DNA from: Pseudomonas grandcourensis
GTDB taxonomy: Bacteria; Pseudomonadota; Gammaproteobacteria; Pseudomonadales; Pseudomonadaceae
DNA length: 64,000 bases
Direction of reading: 5' to 3'
Assembly: GCF_039909015.1 (NCBI RefSeq)
Contig: NZ_CP150919.1
Location: 2,084,501 to 2,148,500, forward strand
Below, in pieces: positions 33,517-52,137 of the stretch (positions are counted from its first letter, which is position 1; the number at the start of each line of letters is the position of its first letter). A model generated the notes under the pieces. That model worked only from the letters and a program-made list of their open reading frames with translations, was not told the DNA's origin and did no database searches. Position numbers and translations under genes: made by a program.

Positions 33517-33551
33517 GGTTGGTCACCTCTTCAAGTTGGGTGTGATTATTA

Positions 33552-33567
33552 GGTTATACGTATAACC
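33552..33567. promoter_or_regulatory. LacI-type operator, site 3
   Basis: Perfect palindrome GGTTATAC/GTATAACC before the leftward thuA-TPP-GMC operon. The 396-bp gap 33517-33912 also holds site 4 and the first TGCG element, and no gene. Confidence 0.8.
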
Positions 33568-33736
33568 GCTTATTTAAGCTATCACTCAAAATCCCTAAGT
33601 CAATGCCTGTTTGATCATTTTCATCCGTATGCCCTCAAAACCCCGTATTCAGGCACTCTAAAGCCTTATGGGCCGCGGGCTTGAGAACATCTCTAATGCG
33701 CATGTAATTCAGGCGACAAGGTTTTAATGAGAAAAG

Positions 33737-33790: not shown

Positions 33791-33828
33791 TGCGTCAGAT
33801 TGCGTCATCAATCAGGAGGCTGCGAAAT
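33791..33828 (+). promoter_or_regulatory. Three-box TGCG element A, upstream of hisD-like gene
   Basis: TGCGTCA (33791), TGCGTCA (33801) and TGCGAAAT (33821): starts at 0, +10 and +30. An additional TGCGTC lies at 33780. The pattern recurs in four other promoters of this island with identical spacing. Confidence 0.72.
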
Positions 33829-33912
33829 TGCCCGGGGCAGGAGGGTGAGAAAAGATGGTCGCCAATGCTGAGGGCATGTCGCGTGCCCTCAAGAACCACC
33901 TGGAGCATATTG

Positions 33913-35196
33913 ATGATTCGTTATCTGAAAAAAAGTAAACCTGTTGAAGCTCAAGCCGAGATTGCCTCTCAAGTCCGCGATACGGTGGCGCAAATCATCA
34001 GCAACGTCGCCAGAAACGGAGACACCGCCGTTCGTGAGTACTCGAAGAAATTCGATAACTGGGAGCCGGCGTCCTTCCGCCTGACCGACGAAGAAATCGC
34101 GGCGTGTGTCGCCAGTCTTTCCGAACAGGAAATCGGCGATATCAAGTTTGCTCAGGCCCAGGTGCGCCGTTTTGCCGAAGTGCAAAAGGCATCCATGCAC
34201 GATGTTGAAGTCGAGACGCTGCCGGGCGTGATCCTGGGGCATCGCAACATTCCGGTGAACTCGGTGGGTTGCTACATTCCTGGCGGCAAGTATCCGTTGT
34301 TGGCATCGGCGCACATGAGCGTGCTGACGGCCAAAGTCGCAGGTGTGAAACGCGTGGTCGCAGCGGCTCCGCCCTTTGATGGCAAGCCGCACCCGGCCAT
34401 CGTCACCGCCATGTACCTGGCCGGTGCCGACGAAATCTATTGCGTCGGTGGGGTGCAGGCGATTGCCGCTTTTGCCTTGGGCACCGAAGCATTCAAGCCC
34501 GTCGACATGATCGTCGGGCCAGGCAATGCCTACGTCGCGGAAGCCAAGCGCCAATTGTTCGGCAAAATCGGTATCGACCTGATCGCCGGCCCGACCGAAA
34601 CCCTGGTCATTGCCGATGACAGTTCCGACGTCGAAATCATCGCCGCCGACTTGCTCGGCCAAGCGGAGCATGGCGTCAACTCCCCGGCTGTATTCCTGAC
34701 CAATAGCCCGGCACTGGCGGAAACCCTGCCGGCTGAAATCGAGCGCCAGTTGGCCATTTTGTCGACCGCGCCAGTCGCTTCGATCGCCTGGCGTGATTAT
34801 GGCGAAATCATCCTCTGCGACACCGTGGACGAACTGGTGCTGGAAGCCGACCGCATTGCCTCCGAACACGTTCAGGTCATGACCCGCGATCCACTGTATT
34901 TCCTCGAACACATGACCAACTACGGGGCGCTGTTTCTCGGTCAGCGAACCAACGTCTCTTACGGCGACAAAGTGATCGGCACCAACCACACATTGCCCAC
35001 GACAGGGACCGCGCGTTACACCGGCGGCCTGTGGGTCGGCAAGTTCATCAAGACCTGCACCTATCAACGTGTCCTGACGGATGAAGCCTCCGTACTGGTC
35101 GGCGAATACTGCTCGCGTCTGTGCGGCATGGAAGGTTTTGCCGGGCACAAGGAACAGGCGGATATCCGCATTCGTCGTTACAAGAAGCCTGCTTGA
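33913..35196 (+). CDS. Histidinol-dehydrogenase-family enzyme (HpsN-like)
   Basis: A 427-residue zinc-dependent NAD dehydrogenase of the HisD superfamily. [34 protein letters not shown] and [12 protein letters not shown], all HisD landmarks, are present, together with the metal-site region QAEHG and the C-terminal [18 protein letters not shown]. Catabolic members such as sulfopropanediol dehydrogenase HpsN oxidise a primary alcohol to the acid in two steps; this context (not with his genes) points the same way, but the substrate is unknown. ATG 33913 has GGAG at 7 bp; a longer frame upstream would cover both regulatory sites. A strong terminator follows. Confidence 0.85.
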
Positions 35197-35296
35197 GGGC
35201 TGTTGGTCAATTGCTGCACTTGGCAAGCGGGTAGCGGGAAAAAGGGTCGTTTCTCGCTGCTGCTGGTCACTCTCACCGTCCTTCCAAGTGTATTCA

Positions 35297-35324
35297 GGCT
35301 CCCCATCCGGGGAGCCTTTTTTTT
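35297..35324 (+). terminator. Rho-independent terminator after hisD-like gene
   Basis: GGCTCCCC (35297-35304), loop ATCC, GGGGAGCC (35309-35316), then eight T. Confidence 0.95.
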
Positions 35325-35376
35325 AACCACTCGAAAAAACTCGTTGTTCCAGGCTGAATTTTAGTGAGGCGATGCG

Positions 35377-37491
35377 ATGGGAACCTTGTCGATAAAAACA
35401 AGAATTACGCTGGCTGCCGGGAGTTGTCTGTTTGCGATGGTGCTTTGCCTGGTGGGTTTTTCGATTCACCAGATGCGCGACACAGCGGCCGTGGTCAGTG
35501 ACTCCAGTACGGATTCGTTGTCCCGGGCGTCCATGCAATACCTGGAGGCAACGGGGCATTTGCAGGCCAGTGGTATTGAGCAGCGGTTCCTTGCCAGCCA
35601 GATGTTCACTCGCTCCCTGGCGACCCAAATCGTCATGATGCGCCGCCAGGCACGACAAAATGGCCTGGCTCCCAAGCAACTGCGTGGCGATTTGTACCGG
35701 CTGGTCCGGGCTCAGGTGGCAACCACGCAGGAGATACTTGGCGTAGGCATCTCCTTTGATCCCAATGCACTCGATGGTGCTGACGAGAGCACCGTCAATG
35801 GTGCCGACTTCACCGGCAATGCCAGTGGCCGCTTTGCGGTGTACGTTTCATCGATGCAGAACTTCATTCTCGAGGAAAAGGAAATGCAGGACGACGGCGA
35901 TCCTGCAAAAGCGTGGTGGAACTGCCCGAAGAAAACCCGCAAGGCTTGTTTGATCGAGCCCTATTCCTTTGAGCTCAACGGTGTTCCGACGCTGACCTCC
36001 AGCATCGCGCTACCGTTGTTGGACAGCGGTAAGTTCATCGGTGTGGTCAGCGTTGATCTGCCCCTGAGCAGCTTGCAAAACATTGCGCAGAAAGCCAGTG
36101 CCTCGATGTTCGAAGGTCAGGGGCAACTGACCTTCATCAGTGCCGCCGGTGTCGTGATGGGTAGAAGCGGCGATCCGGCTTCGTTGGGGAAATCCATCAA
36201 GGACATTTTCCCGCGACAGGCGGCTGAGATGTTCGAAGGGGCCAAGTCGGATAAAACCCTGGCAATCGATGCAGCTGACAATGCCAACATCCTGCTCGTC
36301 GTGCCGTTTTCCCCGATCCCGAACGCCAGCCAATGGATGACGGTCATCGAAGTACCGCGTGCCACGTTGATGGCGTCGGTCGAGGCGTTGCAACAGGTGC
36401 TGGACCAGTCAAATCGGAGGTCTGTGATCGCGCAAGTGGCGACCGGGATCGGTGTCACCCTGGCCGGTACATTGCTGATGGGATTGTTGGCGGTGAGCGT
36501 CACGCGGCCTATTCGTCGGGTGTCCGAAATGCTTGAAAACATCGCCCATGGCGAGGGCGATCTGACCCAGCGGCTCAAGGCTGAGCGCCGCGATGAAATG
36601 GGCGCGTTGGTGGGGTGGTTCAACCGTTTCCTCGATAAGCTGCAACCGATTATTGCGCAAGTCGGCCAGAGCGTATTGGAGACCCGATCCACCGCCGACC
36701 AGGCGTCTTCGATTGCCACCCAGACCAGTAGCGGCATGCAGCAGCAACTGCGCGAGGTCGAGCAAGTCGCGACGGCCACCCATGAGATGAGCGCGACCTC
36801 TCAAGAGGTGGCGCGCAATGCGTCCATGGCAGCGACCGCCGCGCGCAATGGCGATGTCGCCGCCCGATCCTGCAAAGGTACGATCCAGACCGCTGCACAT
36901 TCCATTCAGTCCTTGGCCCATCACATGAGCGGCGCCATGACCGGTGTTCGTCAACTTGCCGACAGCAGCGAGAAAATCGGCAGCGTGCTCGATGTGATTC
37001 GAACCATTGCCCAGCAGACCAATCTGTTGGCGTTGAACGCTGCAATCGAGGCGGCGAGAGCAGGGGAGACGGGCAGAGGCTTTGCGGTGGTGGCGGACGA
37101 GGTTCGACATCTGGCCCAGCGCACACAGGATTCGGTGAGTGAAATTCAAGGCGTCATCGAAAGTCTCCAGAGCGGTACGCGCGATGTCGTGGGCGCCATG
37201 CAGAGTCAGCACCGCCAGGCAGATGCCAGCGCTGCGCAAGCACTCGAGGCCGTCGATGCATTGGCCCATGTCAGCCAGAACATCGAAATCATGACGGACC
37301 TGAACCTGCAAATCGCCAGCGCCGCCGAAGAGCAGAGCGCGGTAACCGAAGAGGTTAACCGTACTGTCTCGGCTATCAGGGACGTGACGGGCGCATTGGT
37401 GGAGCAGGCGGGTCAATCCGCCCGCATCAGCCAATCCTTGAACGACCTTGCGAACCAGCAACAGGTGTTGATGAACAACTTCAGGGTCTGA
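35377..37491 (+). CDS. Methyl-accepting chemotaxis protein
   Basis: A 704-residue chemoreceptor: membrane helix at about 8-30, periplasmic dCache-like sensor to about 345 ([52 protein letters not shown]), second helix at about 355-375, HAMP domain ([27 protein letters not shown]), and the signalling hairpin tip [40 protein letters not shown]. It would steer cells towards a small molecule, plausibly the substrate of the surrounding island; the ligand is not deducible. Confidence 0.92.
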
Positions 37492-37494
37492 ATA

Positions 37495-37528
37495 CCCTGC
37501 CGGAGCGAGCAGGCTCGCTCCGGCAGGG
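37495..37528. terminator. Bidirectional terminator / REP-like hairpin
   Basis: Perfect 15-bp arms CCCTGCCGGAGCGAG (37495-37509) and CTCGCTCCGGCAGGG (37514-37528) between the converging chemoreceptor and GMC genes. The core GCGAGCAGGCTCGC is REP-like; no T-run follows. Confidence 0.75.
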
Positions 37529-37545
37529 CGCTTCAGGGCCCCAGG

Positions 37546-39132: not shown

Positions 39133-39217
39133 TGTTGTGTACCGCCCTGATCAAAAAAAACGCCGGATCATGCTCCTGTGAAAGAGTTGATGAGCCGGCG
39201 CTGACGTTGCTGATAAA

Positions 39218-39239
39218 CCCCTGCCAAATCTGGCAGGGG
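39218..39239 (-). terminator. Hairpin after the ABC transporter ATPase gene
   Basis: Read leftward, CCCCTGCCA pairs with TGGCAGGGG (4-base loop) then TTTAT. A second, longer imperfect hairpin (CGCCGGATCA/TGAGCCGGCG, 39161-39200) with eight T on the leftward strand follows. Together they probably reduce read-through into the GMC gene. Confidence 0.72.
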
Positions 39240-39246
39240 CGATTGT

Positions 39247-40326
39247 TCAAGCAGGTATCACCACAAAACTGTCGGGTTTGCAGGTGAGCGCCACATCCGA
39301 TCCGGGTGGCAGTGCGTGGCTGCCAGGGGTGGGCAGTTGTTGGCATTTGAGGTCGAGGGTGCCGCCAGCCACCGCCACCCGGTAAATGACCCGGTTACCG
39401 ATGAATGACGTGTCCTTTACCTTTCCGGCAAATGCGCCGTCAGCCAGTGGATGCCCCAGCGCAGGCTCAAGACCGATGGTTTCCGGACGGATCGACACAT
39501 TCACCGGTCCGGCGCCCAGGCTGTTTTTGGCGGTGTGCGCGTAGCGGCCGAACGGCAGGTCGACATAGCCGCTGCTGGTACCTCCCATCCCGTAGGTGCC
39601 GTTGACGATATTGGTATCACCGAAAAATTTCGCGGCGAACAAGCTGCGCGGCGACCAGTACATCTCTTGCGGTCCGCCGATCTGCTCGATGCCACCCTTG
39701 TTCAGCAGCACCACGCGGTCGGAGAGAATCATCGCTTCGTCCTGGTCATGGGTGACGTAAACGAAGGTGGTCGATGTCTCTTCGTGGATCCGTTTGATCT
39801 CATTGAGCATGTGGTGGCGGATCTTCAGGTCCAGCGCCGCCAGCGGTTCGTCGAGCAGCAGCACGGCGGGGCGATTCACCAGTGCCCGGGCCAGCGCCAC
39901 GCGTTGCGCCTGCCCGCCACTGAGCTCGGAGATCCAGCGGTTCTTGAAGCCCTCCAGCTGGACCAGCTCCAGGGCCTTGGTCACCTCACGCTTGATCTCG
40001 TCTTTCGGTTTCTTCTTCAGGCGCAGCCCGAAAGCCACGTTGTCGAAGACATCCAGATGAGGGAACAGCGCGTATTTCTGGAACACCATGTTGACCGGAC
40101 GGTGTTCAGGCGCCAGGGACGTGGAGTCCTTGCCATCGATCACCACTTTGCCAGTGGTGGGCTCTTCGAAGCCGGCGATGATGCGCATCAGGGTGGTCTT
40201 GCCGCAGCCACTTGGGCCCAGCAACGTCAGGATTTCGTTGCGCTTTACGGTCAGGTCGACTTTGCCGAGGGCGGTCAGGTTGCCGTAGCTCTTGGATATT
40301 CCGGTCAGTTCAATGCTGTTGGTCAT
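39247..40326 (-). CDS. ABC transporter ATPase, PotA-like
   Basis: A 359-residue ATPase: Walker A GPSGCGKTT (about 38-46), signature LSGGQAQRVALARAL, Walker B LLLDEPLAALD, H-loop VYVTHDQDEAM, then a C-terminal TOBE domain typical of polyamine/iron/opine importers. It follows permease 2 after 5 bp and powers the importer encoded by the next three genes upstream. Confidence 0.92.
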   Translation of the reverse strand: MTNSIELTGISKSYGNLTALGKVDLTVKRNEILTLLGPSGCGKTTLMRIIAGFEEPTTGKVVIDGKDSTSLAPEHRPVNMVFQKYALFPHLDVFDNVAFGLRLKKKPKDEIKREVTKALELVQLEGFKNRWISELSGGQAQRVALARALVNRPAVLLLDEPLAALDLKIRHHMLNEIKRIHEETSTTFVYVTHDQDEAMILSDRVVLLNKGGIEQIGGPQEMYWSPRSLFAAKFFGDTNIVNGTYGMGGTSSGYVDLPFGRYAHTAKNSLGAGPVNVSIRPETIGLEPALGHPLADGAFAGKVKDTSFIGNRVIYRVAVAGGTLDLKCQQLPTPGSHALPPGSDVALTCKPDSFVVIPA

Positions 40327-40331
40327 GGCGA

Positions 40332-41132
40332 TTACTCTGCAGTTTCTGCGCGTTCAAGTTCGAGACGGCGACGGCGCAGGGTCATGACCAGGCCGGCGAT
40401 GACAATGATGGCGATGGTCACGACCAGCATGAACACCGAGGCGGCATTGATGGTTGGGCTGACAGCGCGGCGCATCATCGAAAGAATCATCAGGGGCAAC
40501 GTGGTGTCGCTGCCGGTGACGAATACGGTGATCAGGAATTCGTCCATGGACAGTGCTACCGCCAGGATCGCGGCACCGGCAATCGTCGGGCCGATGATGG
40601 GCAGTGTCACCAGCCAGAATGCCTTGAGTGGTGAGGCACCAAGGTCACGCGCTGCCTCTTCGAACGACAGATCGAAGTACTCCAGGCGTGAACGCACGGA
40701 TTCGACAAAAAACGGAAAGGTGAACAGCGTATGGCCGATGATCACCGTCAGCAGTGAGCGGGGCAGGCCGATCAACGAAAAGAAGATCACCAGCGCGATT
40801 CCCAGGAACAGGCCGGGCAAGGCGATAGGGGCGAAGTTCATGAAGGCAAAGACCGATTTGACGCGTCCTTTCATGCGCATCAGCGCCAGTGCCGAGAATG
40901 TGCCCAGCAGCGTGGTGAGGATGGCCGAGCCCGCGGCGACGATCGCACTGTTGGTCAGGGCCGTCATGAAGTCCGGGCTGCTGAACAGCGCTTCATACCA
41001 TTGCGTGGAGAAGCCTTCGAACGGGAACGACAACGAGGCCGACGAGTGAAAGCTGAACAGCGCGATAATCGCGATGGGCGCATAAAGGAAGAGCATGTAA
41101 ACGTAAGTGAATAGTCTGATCATGGCGGTCAC
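40332..41132 (-). CDS. ABC transporter permease, PotC-like
   Basis: A 266-residue inner-membrane subunit with six predicted helices and the EAA loop EEAARDLGASPLKAFWLVTLP that docks on the ATPase. It resembles PotC of the spermidine/putrescine family. An alternative start (MIRLF) lies three codons in. Between permease 1 (22 bp) and the ATPase (5 bp). Confidence 0.9.
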   Translation of the reverse strand: MTAMIRLFTYVYMLFLYAPIAIIALFSFHSSASLSFPFEGFSTQWYEALFSSPDFMTALTNSAIVAAGSAILTTLLGTFSALALMRMKGRVKSVFAFMNFAPIALPGLFLGIALVIFFSLIGLPRSLLTVIIGHTLFTFPFFVESVRSRLEYFDLSFEEAARDLGASPLKAFWLVTLPIIGPTIAGAAILAVALSMDEFLITVFVTGSDTTLPLMILSMMRRAVSPTINAASVFMLVVTIAIIVIAGLVMTLRRRRLELERAETAE

Positions 41133-41154
41133 CTTGCATTTTTATTGGCGGCGT

Positions 41155-42090
41155 TCAGTCGTGGTAGCGTTTACCGGGCGCTAGGTTGGCCGCCCGCAAC
41201 ACACCCAGCAGCAGCGCATAAACCAGCATGAAGACAATCAGCAGCAGGTAGGCCATCGCCGCTCCCAGCGGCCAGTTACCGACGGAGCGGAACTGGTTGG
41301 CGATCACCAGGCCGGTGGTCATGGCGTCTCGACCACCCAGTAACTGAGGGGTGACGTAGTCACTGGCGGCGAGGACGAAAGTGAACATGAACGAACTGAC
41401 GATGCTCTTGTGGGCCATCGGCATGATCACGCGCCACAGGATGGTGGCACCGCCGGCGCCCAGGTCCGCGGCGGCTTCGAGGTAGTCCTTCTTGATGTCG
41501 CGCAAGCCCGACACCAGCAGCAGAAGGGTGAAGGGCAGCATGATGTGGACGAGTGTCAACACCACCGAAAACTTGCTGAACACCAGCCAGTCCAGAGGTT
41601 GATCGATCAGCCCGAGGTGCATCAGTGTGGAGTTGATCACACCGTTGGTGCCCAGGATCGAGCGCCAGGCATAGACCCGCACCAGGTAGCTCGAGAACCA
41701 TGAGATCAACGCCAGGTACAGGACGGCGTTTGAGCGGGTCCGATAGACAATGTAATAGGCGACCGGGGCGCTGATGATCGTTGACAGCATGGCGGTCCAG
41801 AAACCGTTTTGCAGCGCAATCCACAACGAGTCGTAGAACCCGCTGGCACTCAGGGCCTTCGCATAGTTGGCGAGCGTCGCGGCGGGCTCCATGCTGAAAG
41901 TCTTCGCGGTCCAGAAACTCGCGACCAGCAGCAGTACCGACGGAATGAGGAAGAACACGACCAGGAAGAACAGTGGGGGCGACGCCAGCCAATAACCGCT
42001 CAGGGTCTTTTTGTCGATTTTCACGTGTTTACCAGTCTGCGAATCCCCTTCGTCAAGAATGATGGGCTCGCTGTTGTTGACTACGTTCAT
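41155..42090 (-). CDS. ABC transporter permease, PotB-like
   Basis: A 311-residue permease with a hydrophilic N-terminal tail of about 35 residues, six predicted helices and the EAA loop LEAAADLGAGGATILWRVIMP. ATG 42090 is chosen since an upstream open extension is Arg-rich and unlike the family. Partner of the PotC-like protein. The 212-bp gap to the binding-protein gene contains no gene. Confidence 0.9.
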   Translation of the reverse strand: MNVVNNSEPIILDEGDSQTGKHVKIDKKTLSGYWLASPPLFFLVVFFLIPSVLLLVASFWTAKTFSMEPAATLANYAKALSASGFYDSLWIALQNGFWTAMLSTIISAPVAYYIVYRTRSNAVLYLALISWFSSYLVRVYAWRSILGTNGVINSTLMHLGLIDQPLDWLVFSKFSVVLTLVHIMLPFTLLLLVSGLRDIKKDYLEAAADLGAGGATILWRVIMPMAHKSIVSSFMFTFVLAASDYVTPQLLGGRDAMTTGLVIANQFRSVGNWPLGAAMAYLLLIVFMLVYALLLGVLRAANLAPGKRYHD

Positions 42091-42302
42091 GATGAGTTTG
42101 CCTTTGCTTTTTTGTATCGATGACGAGGGCGCCTTGGCGAGCGCATGCACGGTGTGAGGTGTGCTCTTTCTGAACTGTACGAACGGCATCGACAGGCCAT
42201 TCCATCGCCTCCATCGAGCAGAGAGGCGCGTGCTTGCAAACACGCACCCTCCGGTACAGTTCCCTCAAACAGTCCTTTCAATGCACTGGATTGCCGATGG
42301 CT

Positions 42303-43466
42303 CTAGAACGAGCCTTTGAAGTTTGCCCACTGATCGATCCATTCAGCATAGGTCACATACTTGTCGGAACTCAGGGGGGGCTGGCCGTAGAGTTTCGATT
42401 TCTCGAAAAAGCTATCCAGGTTTGCGTAGTCGAAGGTATTTCTCAGCTCGTCAGGCAGCAACGGTACGGCTTTGGTGTTGACCACGCCGGAGAACATGGT
42501 GGTAGCCATCTTGGCCTGCGTATCAGCCTCGAGTGTCTTGTTGATGAACTCCAGCGCCAGCGGTATGTCCTTTGCCGTTTTCGGGATGAACAAGGCATCG
42601 CACCAGAGGGCCGCACCTTCCTTGGGGACCGACAGCGCCGCTTCTACACCGCGCTTCCTGGTCTCGCTAGGGGTGTTGGCCGACGCCGAGAACACCGCAT
42701 CCACTTCGCCCGACACCAGCAGGGAGACAGCGTCTCCGGACGAGGCTGCAAAGACGCGGCATTGATCACGGTACGGTTTGAGTTTCTCGAAAGCATCGTC
42801 GAATTCGGCACGGGTCAGGTTGGGGAACTTGTCGCCATAGCCGGCAATGATCGCGATGAGTGACCAGTTGGACGTGCCGTCATCCACGAAGGTCAGTTTG
42901 CCCTTCAGTTTCGGGTCCAGCAGGTCCTTGTACTCAACCGGTTTGTTGACGCGCTTGGGGTTGTAGACAATGGTGTTCATGCCCCACAGAAGCGGGACGC
43001 CCCACTGCTTGCCATCCCAGTACCAGCGGCTGCCTTTGTAGAACAGCGGGAGGGTGTTTTGCGCCGAATAGTTGGGGATCTTCGAGGTGTCGATCGCCTT
43101 GAGCAGGCCCATTTCCTGGTAGATGGTCTCGTAGCCCAGCGCGTACATGGTCAAGTCAAGCTGCACGGGATCGGAGCCGGCCAGCCGCGCAGTGATGTCG
43201 TCCTGGTTGCTGGCATAGCTTGAACGTACGGTGATGCCTCGCTGCTTGCGCCATTCGGCCAGCTCCGCGTCGCCGGTTTCACCTTCCCAGCCCAGAATCT
43301 CCAGGTGGCCACCCGCGGCGGCGGCAAATGCGCCCGGCATGAAAGACCCCATGTACAACCCTGCTGCAGATGCCGCAGCCCCCAGCAAGAATGTGCGCCG
43401 CTTCAGGCTAATCGAATCCAGGTCAATGCCGGTTGGTCCATAACCCGTCTCTATTTCTTTTTTCAT
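42303..43466 (-). CDS. Tat-exported ABC substrate-binding protein, PotD-like
   Basis: A 387-residue periplasmic binding protein of the PotD type (GVPLLWGMNTIVYNPKRV, VDDGTSNWSLIAI, SGEVDAVFSA). It has a twin-arginine signal: an unusually long N-region, then Arg23-Arg24 in SLKRRTFLLGAAASAAG and cleavage near AFA-48, so it is exported folded. A tatA paralogue lies 1.8 kb away in the same island. The polyamine family also includes carriers for other cations, opines and sugars-like compounds, so the ligand remains open. Its promoter region carries a leftward TGCG element 346 bp before the start. Confidence 0.88.
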   Translation of the reverse strand: MKKEIETGYGPTGIDLDSISLKRRTFLLGAAASAAGLYMGSFMPGAFAAAAGGHLEILGWEGETGDAELAEWRKQRGITVRSSYASNQDDITARLAGSDPVQLDLTMYALGYETIYQEMGLLKAIDTSKIPNYSAQNTLPLFYKGSRWYWDGKQWGVPLLWGMNTIVYNPKRVNKPVEYKDLLDPKLKGKLTFVDDGTSNWSLIAIIAGYGDKFPNLTRAEFDDAFEKLKPYRDQCRVFAASSGDAVSLLVSGEVDAVFSASANTPSETRKRGVEAALSVPKEGAALWCDALFIPKTAKDIPLALEFINKTLEADTQAKMATTMFSGVVNTKAVPLLPDELRNTFDYANLDSFFEKSKLYGQPPLSSDKYVTYAEWIDQWANFKGSF

Positions 43467-43811
43467 TTCGAGTTCCTGCCTAGGGTGGTAGTGAGCAAAC
43501 GATTAGCGACTTGCAATGGCGCTGGCTCGGCGGGTGATGCCGGGCACATCCTTTTGTATGCAGTCATGTAGATCGGCAGTGTTATGGCCAGCATTGTTTC
43601 CATGAGCTGGGGAGGTTGGCTGCGCTCAAATGTCTGGTTGTGAGCACATTGCGCGGTTGGCCTCCACTGTTCCGATTGACTCTTCCTTGGCTGGGCGACG
43701 CTGCTTTGCTCAGGTTGCAAGGCAAAGACTTGAAGCGACGCGCCCGGCGCTTGATAGGCTCGGCTTGTTGTTTTCATGGATCGAGTATTGGCCTGGCGGG
43801 CAGAGCACTCA

Positions 43812-43849
43812 ATTTCGCAGCACCTTTAAAAGCGACGCACTCTGACGCA
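43812..43849 (-). promoter_or_regulatory. Three-box TGCG element D, towards the ABC operon
   Basis: On the leftward strand: TGCGTCA from 43849, TGCGTCG from 43839, TGCGAAAT from 43819, with starts again at 0, +10 and +30. It is back to back with element B. No gene is visible in 43467-44062. Confidence 0.7.
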
Positions 43850-43925
43850 GCAAAGTGACCTAATCGGCGCAGCAGTCTCTCCCTGACGATAGTTGCTCTT
43901 GAGCGGGGGCGGGGTATCGATCAGC

Positions 43926-43963
43926 TGCGTCAACGTGCGTCTCTTTTGCATGGGGTGCGAAAT
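43926..43963 (+). promoter_or_regulatory. Three-box TGCG element B, towards TPP2-tatA
   Basis: TGCGTCA (43926), TGCGTCT (43936) and TGCGAAAT (43956), 107 bp from the third box to the GTG start. As in element D, the third box continues TTGAG. Confidence 0.72.
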
Positions 43964-44062
43964 TGAGCCGCGCCTTCCCGGGGCGAATACTCCAGAAGTA
44001 GTCCTGAATTGCGGCGAGGTGCATTCGCCCTGACGCCTGCGTCTGTTTGATTGGAGTGTCCT

Positions 44063-45268
44063 GTGAAACTCACTGGTGGCCAGATTGTTGCGAAAGCGCT
44101 GAAAGCGAACGGGGTCGGTTATGTGGCCGGCATGTCAGGTGAAGGCTCGTGGGCCCTGGTGGACGCGTTGCTGACGACAGGCACCGACATCCCGTTCATT
44201 CAAGTCATACAGGAGCAAAACGCAGTCCATCTTGCCGACGGCTATTTCCGTGCCTGCGGTCGTCCCATGGCTGTCCTGCTGCCGGTTCCGCTGGCTGTTT
44301 CCAAGGCTCTAGGCGCAATGGCGACTGCGCTGGCGGACTCATCGGCCATGCTCGTCATCAGTGGTGGCAGTGCCGGTCACTGGCCTGAAACAATGCCTCC
44401 CGGCGTCTCGAAAGAGCATGTTCGGGTTTCGGCGATTGAACAGTTGCCGCAGGCTCTGCGTCAGTCGTTCGATACGATGTTCAATAGCCGCCTCGGCCCG
44501 GTCAGTCTGAGTATTCCGACGGCTGTTCAGAACACCTCTATTGAGGTCAGTCTGCCGCCGGCTACCTTGCGGGCCAACAGCGACTTGCAACGAACGGATT
44601 CCCGATTGGCCGAGTGTGCAGCCGGTTCAATGCTCGGCGCTGATCGTCCTGCGACAGTGAAGGATCGAGCCTCATGCCCGATCAAGGACAGTGCCAACGA
44701 TGCCCCGCCCTTGATGGTTCAAAGACCCTTGACCGAATTGAAGTCAGTCCTTGAAAGAGATGCGATTGTGGTGGTGGGGGCGGGGAGCATTCAGACAGTC
44801 GTCAGAGAGGTTTTTCCCGCTGATCAATCCCGATGCCATCTCTGCGCCACAAGTGTCGGCACGGTGGGTTGGGCGGTGCCGGCGGCGATTGGCGCGAAGC
44901 TTGCCATGCCGGCGCGTCAGGTGGTGTGTGCTGTGGGCGACGGGGACTTCTTGCAGTCGATGCAGGAGATGGCGGTGTGCGTAATGCACAGTCTTCCGGT
45001 GGTGTTCCTGGTGTTCAACAACAGCGGGTATGTGTCGTTGAGCGATGTGCAAGACTCGCTCAACGAGCAGCATCGGGCCGGAGAATTCAATTTGCCGGAC
45101 GGTAAGCCTTATTCGCCCGACTTCGCGAGCATTGCCAGGAATTTTGGTCTTGAAGCGTGGCGAGTCGAACATGCTTCGCAACTCAATCCAGCGTTTATCA
45201 AGGCGCTGAACAGCAAAGGGCCGTCACTGGTGGAGGTCATCACCGCCCGCAGCTCGCGCGTAAATTAA
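44063..45268 (+). CDS. Short TPP enzyme lacking the central domain
   Basis: A 401-residue paralogue of the TPP enzyme at 31.0 kb. The N-terminal pyrimidine-binding domain (KLTGGQIVAKALKANGVGYV; activating Glu51 in IQEQNAVHLADGY) and the C-terminal diphosphate domain (GDGDFLQSMQEMAVCV...FNNSGY) are kept with all motifs. The roughly 150-residue middle domain is replaced by a linker of about 45 residues (near 185-230). There is no frame break, so this is a shaped protein, not decay. GTG 44063 has GGAG 6 bp upstream. It may act alone or with the long paralogue as a subunit. First gene of an operon with tatA. Confidence 0.8.
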   Translation: MKLTGGQIVAKALKANGVGYVAGMSGEGSWALVDALLTTGTDIPFIQVIQEQNAVHLADGYFRACGRPMAVLLPVPLAVSKALGAMATALADSSAMLVISGGSAGHWPETMPPGVSKEHVRVSAIEQLPQALRQSFDTMFNSRLGPVSLSIPTAVQNTSIEVSLPPATLRANSDLQRTDSRLAECAAGSMLGADRPATVKDRASCPIKDSANDAPPLMVQRPLTELKSVLERDAIVVVGAGSIQTVVREVFPADQSRCHLCATSVGTVGWAVPAAIGAKLAMPARQVVCAVGDGDFLQSMQEMAVCVMHSLPVVFLVFNNSGYVSLSDVQDSLNEQHRAGEFNLPDGKPYSPDFASIARNFGLEAWRVEHASQLNPAFIKALNSKGPSLVEVITARSSRVN

Positions 45269-45295
45269 TCAAGCCGTCAACAGAGGAGTCACGCA

Positions 45296-45529
45296 ATGGG
45301 CATTCTGGACTGGAAACACTGGATCGTCATTCTGGTGGTGGTTGTGCTGGTCTTCGGCACCAGGAAGCTGAAGAACCTGGGCTCCGATGTCGGCGAATCC
45401 ATCAAGGGGTTTCGCCAAGCCATGAGTGACGAGGGCGCGAACAGTGAACGTACGCCATCCTCGGTGCAGCAGGCTGGCGCTGCTGTTGATGCACCGCCGG
45501 TCATCGACGGCCAGCATCGCCAGGTCTGA
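45296..45529 (+). CDS. tatA: TatA/TatE-family translocase subunit
   Basis: A 77-residue protein with the TatA plan: short N-terminus, one membrane helix (HWIVILVVVVLVFG, about 8-21), the FGTRKLKNLG hinge, an amphipathic helix (SDVGESIKGFRQAMSDE) and a hydrophilic tail. TatA oligomers form the export path for folded proteins. No tatB or tatC is nearby, so it would work with the housekeeping TatBC. It lies 27 bp after the short TPP gene. A solitary tatA inside a catabolic island that also has a Tat-dependent binding protein is suggestive. Confidence 0.9.
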   Translation: MGILDWKHWIVILVVVVLVFGTRKLKNLGSDVGESIKGFRQAMSDEGANSERTPSSVQQAGAAVDAPPVIDGQHRQV

Positions 45530-45546
45530 GCATCGCGCAGGCGGCC

Positions 45547-46440
45547 TCAGTCCTGACCGCCCCACACGATAGTGGCGTTGTCGCCGGTCATGTATTCACG
45601 CACTTCCAGCGGTAAGGATTGATCGCTGGGCAGCACGGCGGTTGCATTGCGCAGGTGGTGTTTGCGGATCTTGCCTTTGTCCACCAGCCCCAATGCCATG
45701 CGCGTGGAAAAGGGTTGGCGGAATGAAGAGGACGCCACGCCGGTGACCAATCCATAGAGGAAGCGAATCGGCCGGCGATGCTGCGGGGTCAGGATCGAAA
45801 AGGTCATCTCGTTACGCTGCTTGCCTTCAAAGTCGACCAGGAACAGGCGGTCCCCAAGGAGCAGGCAAAAACCGTGATAGGTGAACGAGTAGCCAATCTT
45901 GCCGCTGCCATCGAGCAACGGGAAACGCTCCACCGTGACGTACTGGACCATCGAATCGGCTCGATACAGGCACGTGACCGAGCGCAGGATTCTGCCTTTG
46001 TAGATCGATGAGTTGTGATAGCGGTAATAGACGCCCAGATAGTCTTCGAGTAAATCGGCCGACTGTTTTGCCAAAGGCAGGAAGTGATTGAATTGCGCCG
46101 AGGCACGCAAGTCCGTCGGTAATTCGTTTTCATACCCTTCATAAAACTTCTTGAACTCGGCGGGAGGGCGAAAAAGATCTTCGGCCTCCATCATGAAGTA
46201 ACGACCGATCTTCTGCAGAATCTTCTGGGAAGGAACATGTTGCCCGACCAGATACTTGTTGAACTGCTGGCGATTGACATCGACTTTGCGACACATGTCT
46301 GCGACCGATCGGCAGGACTCAACGAGCGTGCTCAGGTTCTTTTGCACGTTGGCCTGCAAGTCACCGCGAGCCTGTTGTCGCTCGGGATGCGAGGTGGCGG
46401 CAGTTAACGGCATGGTGACGTGATCTCCTGGGCGGGGCAT
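45547..46440 (-). CDS. XRE-like helix-turn-helix regulator
   Basis: A 297-residue protein. An XRE-type DNA-binding domain lies at about 40-90 (SVADMCRKVDVNRQQFNKYLVG, PSQKILQKIGRYF), followed by about 200 residues with no family I know, containing YKGRILRSVTCLYR and beta-rich segments, probably a ligand-binding part. Convergent with tatA (17 bp apart). It is divergent from the Gfo/Idh gene across a region with a TGCG element and a nest of ATAACC half-sites. It is the best candidate to read the TGCG element, as the LacI and DeoR proteins seem to have other operators. Confidence 0.72.
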   Translation of the reverse strand: MPRPGDHVTMPLTAATSHPERQQARGDLQANVQKNLSTLVESCRSVADMCRKVDVNRQQFNKYLVGQHVPSQKILQKIGRYFMMEAEDLFRPPAEFKKFYEGYENELPTDLRASAQFNHFLPLAKQSADLLEDYLGVYYRYHNSSIYKGRILRSVTCLYRADSMVQYVTVERFPLLDGSGKIGYSFTYHGFCLLLGDRLFLVDFEGKQRNEMTFSILTPQHRRPIRFLYGLVTGVASSSFRQPFSTRMALGLVDKGKIRKHHLRNATAVLPSDQSLPLEVREYMTGDNATIVWGGQD

Positions 46441-46479
46441 TTTTTATCTCTGTCTGGTTAAGCGTAATTGGGTGGAGAA

Positions 46480-46518
46480 GGTTATATGGTAGTTATTCTT
46501 GAATAACCGCTAATAACC
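46480..46518. promoter_or_regulatory. Clustered GGTTAT/ATAACC half-sites before the XRE-like gene
   Basis: GGTTAT at 46480, the inverted repeat GTTATTC-TT-GAATAAC at 46492-46507, and another ATAACC at 46513. The half-sites resemble the LacI operators, but spacing differs by 2 bp. It may be autoregulatory or a weak LacI target. The rest of 46441-46828 holds element E and no gene. Confidence 0.5.
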
Positions 46519-46732
46519 AGATGCCACTGTAAACACTTGATCATATTGTATTTAATTCCAAGCATGTTCCATGCCGGGTTCGGATGTTCACATATTGCCT
46601 GTCAATGCTATGTAACAGTCTAGCCTCGGTCGACTCAGGTTACTCGCCACTGCCAGCCGGTAACACTTTGACTATGTCGGGTAACATCATTTTGAGATCC
46701 CCGCACCTCAGTGCATGGCCAATTCAATTCGG

Positions 46733-46770
46733 TGCTTCAGTGCGCGTCATGTATCGATGTTGTGCGAAAT
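46733..46770 (+). promoter_or_regulatory. Three-box TGCG element E, upstream of Gfo/Idh
   Basis: TGCTTCA (46733), CGCGTCA (46743) and TGCGAAAT (46763): one mismatch in each of the first two boxes, spacing unchanged. The third box is 66 bp from the start codon. Confidence 0.6.
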
Positions 46771-46828
46771 GGAGAAATGGAGAATCGCCCTTGATACTCC
46801 ACATGTCATTCATGGGAGCATTTGAGCT

Positions 46829-47998
46829 ATGGCAAGGTTAACAGGCGACATTCCAGGGCAACGGCGCTTCAAGGTCGGAATGGTTGGCGGTGGGCAAGGT
46901 GCTTATTTTGCCAGCTATCATCGGGCTGCGATGCGCCTGTGCAATCGCTTCGATATTGTCGCCGGCGCCTTCTCTTCGGACCCGGACAAATGCCGCGAGG
47001 CAGGGGTGGCCTTCAGCATCGAGCAAGAGCGCATTTATCTGTCGTTCGAGGCGATGGCCGTCGCCGAGTCATGCCGTCCGGATCCGATTGATGCGGTTGT
47101 GATCGTCACGCCCAATCACCTGCATTTTGAACCGTGCCGGCTATTTCTGCGGGCGGGGATCCCGGTCATATGCGACAAGCCGCTGGTCAATAGTCCGCAA
47201 GAGGCCTACGAACTGGCCAGCCTTGCCGACCGGCACAATACTTTTTTCGCGGTGACCTACACCTATCAAGGCTATCCCATGGTCAGGGATGCCCGTAGCC
47301 GTATCCAGGCCGGGGAACTGGGTGAAGTCCGCTTCATGTATGTCGAGTACCTGCTGGAATGGCTGGCGTCAGGCGTAGAGGGCTTGAGCAAGAGCCTCGC
47401 GTGGCGTAGGGACCCGGAAAAGGCCGGCCCGACGGGCGCGTTGGGCGATGTCGGGACGCACGCCTTCAACATGCTTGAGTTTCTGTCGGGGCGACGCTGC
47501 ACGAACCTGAATGCCAAATTGAGCACGCTCGTACCCGGCTGGGGACTGGACGACACCTGTGTGGTGCAACTTGAATTCGAGGGCGGCGCCGAGGGTCTGT
47601 TATGGGCCAGTTTCGCGGCGCCTGGTCATCGCAACGGATTGCGTTTCAAGATCGTCGGCAGCAAGGCCTCCATCGAATGGTGTCAGGAGTCACCGGAAAC
47701 GCTGCTGTTTACGCCAATTGACGGCGCCGACCGCATCTACCGCCGCGGCCAGAGCGACAATGCGGCGCAAACGCTGACGTTCACCAGTTTGCCGGCCGGT
47801 AATAGTGAAGGCTATCTGGAGGCACTGGCGGTGCTTTATGCCGATTTCGCCGAAGCACTCGATGCTGGGGCGGACTGGCGCACGGTGACCACCGTCCCGT
47901 TACCGGATATTCACGAGGGCGTGCGGGGAGTGGTGTTGTCCCAAGCGTGTGTCGAGTCCAGTCAACGACGTGCCTGGGTACCTTTTGCGCCGTTGTAG
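46829..47998 (+). CDS. Gfo/Idh/MocA-family NAD(P) oxidoreductase
   Basis: A 389-residue dehydrogenase of the inositol-dehydrogenase superfamily: Rossmann loop VGMVGGGQGAYFASYHR (about 16-32), VIVTPNHLHFEP, the CDKPL motif with the cofactor/catalytic Lys, and GALGDVGTHAFNMLEF supplying the Asp and His of the active site. It oxidises a ring hydroxyl of a sugar or cyclitol, or reduces the ketone. Substrate not known. Single-gene transcript between the divergent XRE-like gene and the converging DeoR gene (10 bp). Confidence 0.88.
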   Translation: MARLTGDIPGQRRFKVGMVGGGQGAYFASYHRAAMRLCNRFDIVAGAFSSDPDKCREAGVAFSIEQERIYLSFEAMAVAESCRPDPIDAVVIVTPNHLHFEPCRLFLRAGIPVICDKPLVNSPQEAYELASLADRHNTFFAVTYTYQGYPMVRDARSRIQAGELGEVRFMYVEYLLEWLASGVEGLSKSLAWRRDPEKAGPTGALGDVGTHAFNMLEFLSGRRCTNLNAKLSTLVPGWGLDDTCVVQLEFEGGAEGLLWASFAAPGHRNGLRFKIVGSKASIEWCQESPETLLFTPIDGADRIYRRGQSDNAAQTLTFTSLPAGNSEGYLEALAVLYADFAEALDAGADWRTVTTVPLPDIHEGVRGVVLSQACVESSQRRAWVPFAPL

Positions 47999-48008
47999 AT
48001 CCAGGGGG

Positions 48009-48779
48009 TCAAGAGGCGATCACAATGTTTGAAACCTTGGCCTGTATGGGGTCAAGCCGTTCAGCTGGGGCGTCTCTTTCCACCACCAGCACACCCAGTT
48101 CCTCGCAGGACGCGACCTGGTAATGCGCGATGCTCGACAGTTTTTCGTTGGTCACGGCGACCACGATCTGCCCGCTTCGGGAAACCACGGTGCGCTTGAA
48201 TTCCGCATCGTCCATGTCGAAAGCCGTCACTCCTTTGCTGGCGTCAATCGCGCAGGCCCCCAGAAAGCACAGGTCGAAATTGAAATTCGACAACTGCTGA
48301 ATGGCCGTCAGGCCGACGGTGCTGCCGGTCGCCTTATGCAGGCGCCCGCCCAGCAAGATCACATCGGCTAAAGGCAGCTTTTCCAGTTCAAGCGCAATGG
48401 CTGGCGAATTGGTTGTGATCGAAATTGCAAGATTGTGATCGATTGCGCTCGAAATGGAAGCGTTGGTGGTACCGCCATCGATGAAGAGGTGTTGGCCGGT
48501 CTTGATCAGTGCCGCAGCGGCCAGCCCGAGGGAGTTTTTCCGCTCAGCCTGCTGATGTTGCCCGTCATGATCGCCGCGAACAGGCGCCACGGAAATGGCG
48601 CCGCCGTAAACGCGCTTGCAGATTCCCGCCTCCGCCAGCGCTGCGAGATCGCGCCGGATCGAGTGCTCGGAAACGTTGAACTCCTGAGCGAGATCCCCGG
48701 CCAGGACGCGGCCATGGGTCGCCAGCCGTTGCGCGATCAGGTTCTGTCTTTCTCCGGGGAAAGCTTCATGAGTGAGCAT
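48009..48779 (-). CDS. DeoR-family transcriptional regulator
   Basis: A 256-residue repressor type: N-terminal winged HTH (AGDLAQEFNVSEHSIRRDLAAL, CKRVYGGA, about 25-63) and the DeoRC sugar-phosphate-sensing domain (IFDGGTT-like LFIDGGTTNASIS, DVILLGGRLH, DLCFLGACAID). Start at 48779 chosen, since the in-frame extension upstream would swallow the operator region. Divergent from the GH3 pair, which it probably controls. Confidence 0.88.
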   Translation of the reverse strand: MLTHEAFPGERQNLIAQRLATHGRVLAGDLAQEFNVSEHSIRRDLAALAEAGICKRVYGGAISVAPVRGDHDGQHQQAERKNSLGLAAAALIKTGQHLFIDGGTTNASISSAIDHNLAISITTNSPAIALELEKLPLADVILLGGRLHKATGSTVGLTAIQQLSNFNFDLCFLGACAIDASKGVTAFDMDDAEFKRTVVSRSGQIVVAVTNEKLSSIAHYQVASCEELGVLVVERDAPAERLDPIQAKVSNIVIAS

Positions 48780-48815
48780 TGACTTAATCCGTTCTCGGTA
48801 TAGAGTGAGTACAAG

Positions 48816-48905
48816 CGAGCATTGATTGTGTGTTTTGTGCTCGAAGTTGATCGGTATCATGCGTGGCACCCCGTCATGCGTCAATAAAGTTGAGCTTTCT
48901 GCTCA
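48816..48905. promoter_or_regulatory. Candidate DeoR operators between deoR-like and GH3 genes
   Basis: Two inverted repeats share GAGC/GCTC arms: CGAGCA (48816-48821) with TGCTCG (48838-48843), and TGAGC (48891-48895) with GCTCA (48901-48905). They lie 37-64 bp and 25-39 bp from the two divergent starts. Confidence 0.5.
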
Positions 48906-48929
48906 AAATAACGGTGTTGAGGAAAGTCG

Positions 48930-49964
48930 ATGACAAGCGAACTGCATAGAGCGGCGTATTCGGTCCTGCTGCCCGCGTTTGGGGATTTGCGCCTGGACGA
49001 CAATGTCCGTCGTTGTTTGAGTCGGGGTGGCGTGTCTGTTTTGTTGGGTGAAACCCGGGATGAGTACGTGGGCCGAGACATGAGCCCTGCGCGCAAGAGC
49101 ACCGAGTCGCGGGCCGACTTTGTCGATATTGCCCGTGAAGCCGCGTCATTGGCCGGTGCCCCGGTGCTGATCGCGGTCGATCAGGAACTCGGCGGTATCG
49201 AGCGCCTTCACCATCTGGTCCCGGCCGTCGCATCCCGAGAGCAACTCCACGACCTCAGTGCGCAGGACATCGAACAACGTTGCTATGAAATGGCCAAGGT
49301 AGCGCGCGGCCTGGGCGTTAACCTGTTTCTGGCGCCGATCGTCGATGTCGTGACCGGGGCCAACCCATGGCTGCACAACCGCCACCTGGGGGCCGACCCT
49401 GTTGAAGTCAGCCGGGTTTCATGTGCTTTCATTCGTGGCGTTCAACGCGCAGGCATCATCGCGACCGCTAAACACTTTCCCGGCCATTACGTCACCGAGC
49501 AGGACCCGGCAATTGCCGAAGCCATCGTGCCCGGACCTCTGAAATTGCTTGATGACAACCTCGAAGTGTTCAAAGAAGTCATCGCTACCGGCGTGAAAGC
49601 GGTGATGCCGGGGCCCGCGGTTTTTCCCGCAATCGACCCCGATCACTCGGCCTCAACCTCGTCCAGAGTCATTGGGCTTTTGCGTGACACCCTCGGGTTC
49701 GGGGGCTTGATCATCTCGGATGACCTTGATGCGGTCTCCATACTCAGGGGGCGCTCCATCACGGACACCGCCGTTGCTTCGCTGGCGGCCGGCGCGCACT
49801 TGTTGCTCGTGTCCAGTGAGTCGGGTCTTGATGCCATCGCCGAAGCCATTGTGGCGGCTGTTCACGAAGGAGTTCTGGATCGTCGGATTCTGTTGGACGC
49901 GGCCCTCAGGGTTCGCGAACTGGCGGCGGCCAACAACGATCAGTACAACGGCTGCCGGGATTAA
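48930..49964 (+). CDS. NagZ-like GH3 family protein (paralogue 1)
   Basis: A 344-residue single-domain GH3 barrel, like NagZ in size. KHFPGH (181-186) binds substrate in NagZ and is kept. The nucleophile is present as Asp264 in ISDDLDAVS. The His of the NagZ catalytic dyad (DSH) is lost (here Gln-Asp-Pro-Ala, 191-194). No signal peptide, so cytoplasmic. A beta-glycosidase or phosphorylase with altered acid-base chemistry is likely; the sugar is unknown. The downstream paralogue begins 2 nt after its stop. Confidence 0.82.
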   Translation: MTSELHRAAYSVLLPAFGDLRLDDNVRRCLSRGGVSVLLGETRDEYVGRDMSPARKSTESRADFVDIAREAASLAGAPVLIAVDQELGGIERLHHLVPAVASREQLHDLSAQDIEQRCYEMAKVARGLGVNLFLAPIVDVVTGANPWLHNRHLGADPVEVSRVSCAFIRGVQRAGIIATAKHFPGHYVTEQDPAIAEAIVPGPLKLLDDNLEVFKEVIATGVKAVMPGPAVFPAIDPDHSASTSSRVIGLLRDTLGFGGLIISDDLDAVSILRGRSITDTAVASLAAGAHLLLVSSESGLDAIAEAIVAAVHEGVLDRRILLDAALRVRELAAANNDQYNGCRD

Positions 49965-49966
49965 TC

Positions 49967-50974
49967 ATGAGCTCAATTGAAAGCAAGGCATACAGCGTCC
50001 TGTTTCCGGTTTTGCTCGATCTGGACATGAATGATGACGTGCGCAGGTTTCTGGACAGCGGCGGACGCAGCCTGTTGTTTGGCGAAACCGCGCAGGAGTA
50101 TGTCAGCGGCAAAATGAGCGCGAGCCGGCTGGAATCGGAAACCCTGGAGAAATGGCAACAGTTCACAGGTATGGCAAGAAAACTGGCAGGGCCAATGCTG
50201 CTGGCGGTCGATGCCGACATCTCTGCCGTCCACCGCTTGCAAGGCATAACGCCTGCGCTACCTGCGCCCGGGCTGGCCCGAGCCATGGACGTTGTCGAGC
50301 TTGAAGAGGCGTGCTTTCGGGTCGCAACAGCGGTGCGAAATGCCGGTGTGAATTTGCTCCTGTCACCGACAGCCGATGTGGTGGGCGGCACTAATGTCTG
50401 GCTGCAGGGGCGAACGCTGTGCAATGACATAGATCGCACCGCTGCCATGGTGGGCGCCTACGTACGCGGTGTGCGGCGTGCCGGGATGGCGAGCACGCTG
50501 AAGCATTTTCCCGGGCATCCGGTGCTGCTGCGCCAACCGGCGACTGAAGTGGCGGTCGTCTGCGAGTCAATGGATCAACTGCGCGCCTACTGGTCTGCGT
50601 TTCAAGCCGGGGTCGACGCCGGGGCGGACGCGGTGATGATGGGACCGGCCATCTTTGCTGCCTGCGAACCGCCCGTTGCGGCGTCCGTTTCGCCTGAGCT
50701 GATCGGTTTGCTGCGCCAGGAGCTGGGGTTCAAGGGATTGGTCATGACCATTGACCTGGACCACCGCTCGACGATCGGAAACTCATCGCTCGGCGAGGTG
50801 GCGGTGGCGGCGCTGAATGCCGGGGCGGATCTGTTGCTGATTTCCGCAAAGGCAATGCCCGAGATACCGCAGATTGTTCGTGCAATCACCGTAGCAGTCG
50901 CTCAGGGAGTTTTACCGCAGCAGCGGCTCGATGCCGCTGCGATAGCCGTCTCTGCGTTGGCCAATCGCTTGTAG
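49967..50974 (+). CDS. NagZ-like GH3 family protein (paralogue 2, nucleophile missing)
   Basis: A 335-residue paralogue of the preceding protein (ESKAYSVLFPVLLDLDMNDDVRRFLDSG against the first copy's start is clear). KHFPGH is kept at 179-184. The nucleophile position is Ile262 (TIDLDH instead of SDDLDA), and the Asp of the NagZ acid-base loop is also lost (Arg-Gln-Pro-Ala). It is unlikely to hydrolyse glycosides as GH3 enzymes do; it may form a heterodimer with paralogue 1, bind ligand, or have a new activity. Confidence 0.8.
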   Translation: MSSIESKAYSVLFPVLLDLDMNDDVRRFLDSGGRSLLFGETAQEYVSGKMSASRLESETLEKWQQFTGMARKLAGPMLLAVDADISAVHRLQGITPALPAPGLARAMDVVELEEACFRVATAVRNAGVNLLLSPTADVVGGTNVWLQGRTLCNDIDRTAAMVGAYVRGVRRAGMASTLKHFPGHPVLLRQPATEVAVVCESMDQLRAYWSAFQAGVDAGADAVMMGPAIFAACEPPVAASVSPELIGLLRQELGFKGLVMTIDLDHRSTIGNSSLGEVAVAALNAGADLLLISAKAMPEIPQIVRAITVAVAQGVLPQQRLDAAAIAVSALANRL

Positions 50975-51078
50975 ACGCGCGCCTGGTCGCGATAAGGCTG
51001 AATGAAGTACCCACAATCGCTGGTAAGCCGGCTCCGGCAGGCTGGTGTGGATTCATCGTCGATGTTGCAAATTGCCCA

Positions 51079-51132
51079 AACCTGACGCAGCAACTGCGTC
51101 AGGTTGCGCCGCATTTCCTGCGAGTGCGAAAT
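51079..51132 (+). promoter_or_regulatory. TGCG element C with overlapping perfect palindrome
   Basis: TGCGTCA (51095), TGCGCCG (51105), TGCGAAAT (51125), 60 bp from the third box to the next start codon. The first box is also the right arm of a perfect 12-bp inverted repeat, AACCTGACGCAG (51079-51090) / CTGCGTCAGGTT (51094-51105), which could end transcription of the GH3 genes or let the regulator bind both ways. Confidence 0.7.
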
Positions 51133-51184
51133 AACTACCGGAACCCTATCGCTCTACACTGGGAATCAACGGTAGGAGCTTTAT

Positions 51185-52069: not shown

Positions 52070-52137
52070 AGCACCGCGCACCGGGATTCAAAACCCCGTT
52101 CTTACAATGTGTACCTCATAAAAGGTCTTAAGTCGTC

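Follow-up and report, generated by a model that had tools for sequence, protein, structure and literature searches.

The phage repressor lambda CI, an XRE-fold protein with a protease-like C-terminal domain, binds palindromic operators and, at OR2/PRM, adjoins the -35 hexamer of a sigma70 promoter in a class II activation arrangement. Class II activators of the AraC/XylS type use helically phased direct repeats, the final one touching -35, and carry two helix-turn-helix (HTH) motifs per monomer. SinR is a repressor with a helical C-terminal part and is able to use direct repeats. In Pseudomonas, two papers describe palindromic motifs and repression for the XRE-cupin regulators PauR, PsdR, ErfA and DbuR (PMC7901475, PMC12724383). 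The present analysis concerns a three-box DNA element in a gene island of Pseudomonas grandcourensis, within a stretch of 64,000 nucleotides (NZ_CP150919.1, positions 2,084,501 to 2,148,500) that was analysed as a whole and is called the window. One conserved element precedes five transcription units of this island. Its probable binding partner is an XRE-type protein encoded in the island itself (45547-46440), for which ligand-controlled class II activation of sigma70 promoters is predicted.

The three-box element

The pattern TGCGTCA-N3-TGCGTC-N14-TGCGAAAT has five copies in the 64-kb window. Three are without mismatch and lie before the hisD-like gene (33791-33828, plus strand; boxes 33791-33797, 33801-33806 and 33821-33828), the ABC transporter operon (43812-43849, minus strand; boxes 43849-43843, 43839-43834 and 43819-43812) and the short thiamine pyrophosphate (TPP)-enzyme gene (43926-43963, plus strand). 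The weakest copy, with two mismatches, precedes the Gfo/Idh gene (46733-46770, plus strand). The copy of the TIM barrel-GMC operon (51095-51132, plus strand) has one mismatch, its box 2 reading TGCGCC, and an inverted box, CTGACGCAG, stands just upstream. Box starts fall at 0, +10 and +30 in 5/5 copies, so that all three boxes lie on one helix face. A preliminary description of this DNA had proposed these five copies, with the same strands and spacing, and the pattern search confirmed them. It also named the five transcription units correctly (the start of the hisD-like gene is here corrected to 33913) and gave the right two mismatches for 46733-46770, leaving the one at 51095-51132 unmentioned.

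No match at three or fewer mismatches arose in 100 dinucleotide shuffles of the window. Across the whole 6.76-Mb genome (in which the window is C1:2084501-2148500), the search returned the five window copies and two more, both with three mismatches; a reversed control pattern at the same threshold gave none. The preliminary description had set this search beforehand as a test able to refute it, through a scatter of equal-quality matches, and no such scatter was found. Because only two further 3-mismatch matches occur genome-wide, the element marks this island in the P. grandcourensis genome. A chance origin is ruled out by the shuffles together with the whole-genome count. One of the two extra matches, at 1606154 (L006), lies within a long open frame. 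The other, at 3892469 (L007), shares its spacer letters with the 51095 copy and is followed, as judged by eye, by a degenerate TIM-gene start; from its sequence it is apparently a decayed duplicate, a relic of the TIM promoter and gene start. A transposase-like gene, also seen by eye, lies close to it.

Promoter geometry

A -10-like hexamer, recognised by eye, follows box 3 after exactly 22 bases in 5/5 window copies, and box 3 therefore adjoins -35. Mean identity to TATAAT peaks at this offset, reaching 3.90/6 with a next best value of 2.33 when the window and 21 orthologue loci are pooled (83 distinct sites). The paralogue sites described below (n=50) give 3.22/6 at offset 22 and 2.20 at the next best. 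From the sequence and the offset-22 peak, the putative promoters are as follows: for hisD, -35 TTGCCC at 33828-33833 and -10 AAAGAT at 33851-33856 (plus strand); for the ABC operon, -35 TTGAGT and -10 AATACT within 43784-43812 (minus strand); for TPP, -35 TTGAGC and -10 AATACT within 43963-43991 (plus strand); for Gfo/Idh, -10 GATACT at 46793-46798 (plus strand); and for TIM, -10 TACACT at 51155-51160 (plus strand). In the TPP and ABC promoters the final T of box 3 is also the first base of the -35 hexamer, and the spacer is 17 bp. The -35 hexamers of Gfo and TIM are poor (TGGAGA and TAACTA). As at class II activator promoters, the site adjoins -35 at a fixed distance from -10, both at the five window sites and in the offset-22 peak. 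The predicted geometry is class II, the last box touching -35 and the upstream box pair lying two turns further out.

Conservation across Pseudomonas loci

A copy with at most one mismatch is present in 21/21 Pseudomonas loci that have an orthologue of the XRE gene, which bears out the box conservation in homologous islands on which the preliminary description had staked its proposal. The element stands upstream of the ABC binding-protein gene in 19/19 loci having that gene and upstream of hisD in all nine related loci with a readable flank (one more hisD lies at a contig edge). It precedes the short TPP gene in 20 loci, with box 3 at +30 in 19/20 and at +31 in 1/20, and the TIM gene in 15/20. 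Among 14 loci with Gfo/Idh at 60% identity or more, a filter below which L018, L019, L026 and L028 fell despite a Gfo-type site, 11 have the element at four or fewer mismatches and two more have it at +31. Control upstream rows (XRE, ThuA, the first permease and two GMC genes) gave 0/86 sites at seven or fewer mismatches; these rows represent 74 distinct regions, 12 GMC2 rows being the GMC3 gene found twice, and some are not promoters.

Information content follows the boxes. Box columns hold 1.90-2.00 bits, spacers 1.24-1.47 and flanks 0.43-1.62 depending on the promoter, a comparison that favours the boxes since the sites were picked by them. A scan that fixed no spacing covered the window plus 35 loci, with L027 and L090, a single locus, entered once; 97/102 sites (93 distinct) fell at 0/+10/+30 and 5/102 at 0/+10/+31. 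None fell at the other spacing combinations tried in this set, which did not include the paralogues.

The XRE-type protein as candidate reader

The likely reader of the element is the XRE-type regulator encoded on the minus strand at 45547-46440. It has a Cro/CI-type HTH, as XRE regulators do, and a predicted 8-stranded C-terminal barrel over residues 136-254. Among the fold matches listed, the best alignments of this barrel are to designed beta barrels and avidins. A Pfam scan of 24 members at E<=1 and the 50 fold matches listed contained no cupin, which excludes nothing. The palindromic operator of XRE-cupin regulators is not seen here: the three boxes share one orientation.

A total of 348 Pseudomonas genomes were searched. 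The element pattern, at two or fewer mismatches, occurs in 22 of them and the reversed control in 1/348. The XRE protein is present at 84% identity or more in 18 genomes, another two having it at 41-42%, and the element is found in 20/20 genomes with the protein at 41% or more. One carrier, G021, has a 2-mismatch site whose letters are near-identical to those of the intragenic match (L006) of the window's genome. About 218 kb separate the hisD copy of G243 from its XRE gene, and this copy is still ahead of hisD, which fits a trans-acting factor. In a class-wide search at E<=1e-50, the window's own genome was the sole one with an XRE match (1/369).

Beyond Pseudomonas, alphaproteobacterial plasmids yielded 24 matches to XRE homologues, of which 12 loci were examined. 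Here the homologues are 38-43% identical, and the element is present at four or fewer mismatches in 12/12 (ten at two or fewer; two weak). None of 60 mononucleotide shuffles of these loci gave a match at four or fewer. Where annotated, the neighbours of these XRE genes are different combinations of TPP, hisD, GMC, Gfo/Idh, TIM, GH3 or ABC genes.

Pseudomonas also encodes XRE paralogues of about 30% identity. They are accompanied by a variant element, [AG]GC[AG]TCA..GC[AG][TC]CA..[CT]GCGAAATTG, in 10/10 loci, four of which had served in writing the variant pattern. This variant recurs at two or fewer mismatches over 23 positions in 39/39 further paralogue loci of about 30% identity, the best of 117 shuffles having four. 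A spacing control on these loci at four or fewer mismatches found 39/39 at (10,20) and 28-37/39 at five other spacings; it is non-discriminating because box 3 makes up 10 of the 23 positions that count towards the score and because additional incomplete boxes are present. The genes downstream, named from reading the sequences rather than from a family search, are an AGCS-type symporter with an asparaginase in four of five paralogue loci and a peptide-type ABC operon in the fifth, that of the window's genome. When the regulators of the window were compared with two paralogue loci (L092, L093), the XRE protein alone had a match. An extra inverted box (TGRYGC) lies upstream in 45/50 paralogue sites vs 17/83 sites of orthologue loci, and the paralogue sites (L078-L087, L111-L150) may therefore serve two divergent promoters. 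The second XRE regulator of the window's genome is about 32% identical, with a variant element GGCGTCA..GGCGT..CGCGAAATTGAG before the peptide-type ABC operon. This element (G000 C1:4484382-4484423; L092, L151) matches exactly at a single place genome-wide, followed by two island sites at three mismatches.

Altogether, XRE homologues spanning 29-100% identity have the element next to them in differing gene neighbourhoods, those of 29-43% lying elsewhere. Because it adjoins distant XRE relatives in other bacteria, the XRE protein likely binds it. This lends strong comparative support to the preliminary description, which had preferred the XRE-like protein as reader.

A residue of the recognition helix varies together with the element. 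With Gln as residue 58, position 4 of box 1 is G or T in 38/38 listed loci, and with Ala, Gly or Thr it is A in 44/45, a tally in which L075 and L090 are the same locus entered twice and the sites of L101 and L107 are poor.

These features suggest how the system may work. Subunits of the XRE protein would line up head to tail on the direct repeats, each through the recognition helix NRQQFNKYL. The subunit on box 3, next to the -35 hexamer, would touch RNA polymerase, and the C-terminal barrel would take up a small molecule that sets binding or activity. The hisD, ABC importer, TPP-tatA, Gfo/Idh and TIM-GMC units would then be switched together.

Weighing the alternatives

Several observations weigh against a ligand-controlled XRE activator. 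It is geometry alone that points to activation rather than repression, and binding is likewise a prediction. In G250, which has no XRE match at E<=1e-15, an intact hisD still follows a copy with two mismatches; this genome has LacI, GMC1, TPP, ThuA, hisD, TIM and GMC3 genes, its TIM gene being without a copy. The element is absent before TIM in 5/20 loci and before Gfo/Idh in 1/14, and the region upstream of the XRE gene itself has a copy in 0/21 loci. The -10 signal is weak in the alphaproteobacteria (2.29/6 at offset 22, next 1.92; 24 sites), and that of the intermediates, 2.50/6 with a next best of 2.25, comes from four sites. On the tree, the residue-58 pattern amounts to one evolutionary change, and because of this the covariation is consistent with a base contact and not independent proof of one. 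Finally, a LacI-family gene matches the co-occurrence of the XRE gene, being found in 20/348 genomes, 20/20 of them with the element.

The best surviving alternative keeps the same protein and reverses its sign: the XRE-type protein would bind the element as a repressor and be released on substrate binding, like Pseudomonas XRE-cupin proteins. The TTGAGC/AATACT (TPP) and TTGAGT/AATACT (ABC) pairs resemble usable sigma70 promoters, and those sensor-domain XRE proteins of Pseudomonas that have been characterised act locally as repressors (PMC7901475, PMC12724383). However, the poor -35 hexamers of Gfo and TIM are not of this kind, the element is a phased direct repeat rather than a palindrome, and its boxes stop at -35, leaving -10 and the start uncovered, whereas the stretch protected by DbuR takes in -10. 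Repression is accordingly rather improbable, if clearly the strongest competitor.

Much less can be said for the LacI-family regulator (28218-29318) as reader, which is very unlikely. Since LacI occurs in 20 genomes, all of them carriers, genome counts alone cannot separate it from XRE. LacI sites are normally palindromic, and a LacI gene is not found in every carrier: G140 has the XRE protein (84%) and two copies of the element (zero and one mismatch), yet no LacI match at E<=1e-90, nor any at E<=1e-12 within its 20-kb locus. The element also adjoins XRE paralogues, and in a comparison with two of these paralogue loci (L092, L093) the window's LacI had no match. Within Pseudomonas islands, the choice of XRE over LacI comes from that one genome, G140; otherwise it comes from the paralogue and alphaproteobacterial loci.

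An alternative sigma factor using the element as its promoter, which the preliminary description had kept as its alternative, has fared poorly and is slightly less plausible still. An extracytoplasmic function (ECF) sigma gene does lie within the window (53971-54471), and the element does keep a fixed distance from a -10. That -10 is sigma70-like, however, and three boxes that span 38 bp ahead of a -35/-10 pair of sigma70 type are unlike a two-hexamer promoter. A tblastn search with the ECF gene, confined to the element-carrying 20-kb loci of G278, G308 and G140, gave no match at E<=1e-12. The DeoR-family regulator (48009-48884) has its place in the island in its favour and can practically be set aside: a close orthologue (91% or more) is present in just 3/22 element-carrying genomes, and 36 genomes match DeoR at E<=1e-75, of which 31 have no element.

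Genes of the island

The HisD-like dehydrogenase (33913-35196, plus strand; PF00815) has sulfopropanediol 3-dehydrogenases as its nearest solved relatives, scoring 384.9 bits with 8v35 vs 286.5 with the best histidinol dehydrogenase, 4g07. The ABC transporter genes (39247-43466, minus strand) comprise open frames for a binding protein (SBP_bac_8), two permease-like genes and an ATPase. The short TPP enzyme (44051-45268, plus strand) matches the N and C domains PF02776 and PF02775, with no match to a middle domain. At 405 residues, it appears shortened relative to a full-length homologue at 31007-32794. That long TPP enzyme is acetolactate-synthase-like, with BbmA as best match (278 bits). Directly after the short TPP gene comes that of a TatA/B/E-family protein of 77 residues (45296-45529, plus strand; PF02416, 1e-12), which probably belongs to the regulon. 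Further along the plus strand are a Gfo/Idh/MocA oxidoreductase (46829-47998; PF01408, PF22725) and two open frames at 51185-53724, a xylose-isomerase-like TIM barrel gene (PF01261) and a GMC-type oxidoreductase gene, the GMC label of the latter deriving from the preliminary description and from likeness to annotated plasmid GMC genes. GMC1 is closest to flavin adenine dinucleotide (FAD) glucose/fructose dehydrogenases. The island is likely catabolic. With solved relatives that suggest polyol/sugar chemistry, degradation of a sugar- or polyol-like compound is a reasonable guess.

The alphaproteobacterial island versions L101, L102, L103 and L106 also carry an aspartate ammonia-lyase gene, and some have a VOC/glyoxalase gene; both are possible clues to the substrate. 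Palindromic GGTTAT/ATAACC stretches, found by eye at 33548-33568 and 46479-46520 near the ThuA and XRE promoters, are candidate LacI-family operators.

Comparison with known regulators

Among the matches listed from the open-licence literature in PubMed Central, none described the three-box element or this XRE family, a weak negative. What appears new is an XRE-fold regulator, predicted to be an activator, on phased direct repeats; the XRE fold itself is known. The comparative data also lean, with modest confidence, towards a wider picture: a widespread, so far undescribed XRE-fold family with an avidin/lipocalin-like sensor barrel, whose head-to-tail array on 10-bp slots (0, 10, [20], 30) ending at -35 would activate transcription, an AraC-like logic on a Cro/CI fold. 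In such a family residue 58 would set the base at box position 4, and different pathways would be controlled in alpha- and gammaproteobacteria. The system amounts to five promoters, one regulator and one predicted contact residue. If the proposal is true, a readable DNA code predicts, from nothing but sequence, the regulons of uncharacterised catabolic islands, as well as those of asparaginase/AGCS and peptide-transport units.

Each of the known systems shares part of this design. Lambda CI has the class II geometry that is predicted for the XRE protein of the window, and differs in its palindromic operators and protease-like domain. AraC/XylS-type activators have the same repeat layout; the XRE protein belongs to another HTH family and has one recognisable HTH. 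SinR, a repressor with a helical C-terminal part and another target, is unlike it in these respects. The XRE-cupin regulators resemble it in joining a Cro/CI-type HTH to a C-terminal domain of small-molecule type and in the location of the regulator gene near its catabolic targets (PMC7901475, PMC12724383). In contrast to them, the present system has phased direct repeats upstream of -35, a predicted barrel that aligns most closely, among the matches listed, to avidins and designed barrels, and predicted activation. If this holds, the fold of the palindrome-binding XRE-cupin repressors of Pseudomonas is also used to activate transcription from phased direct repeats.

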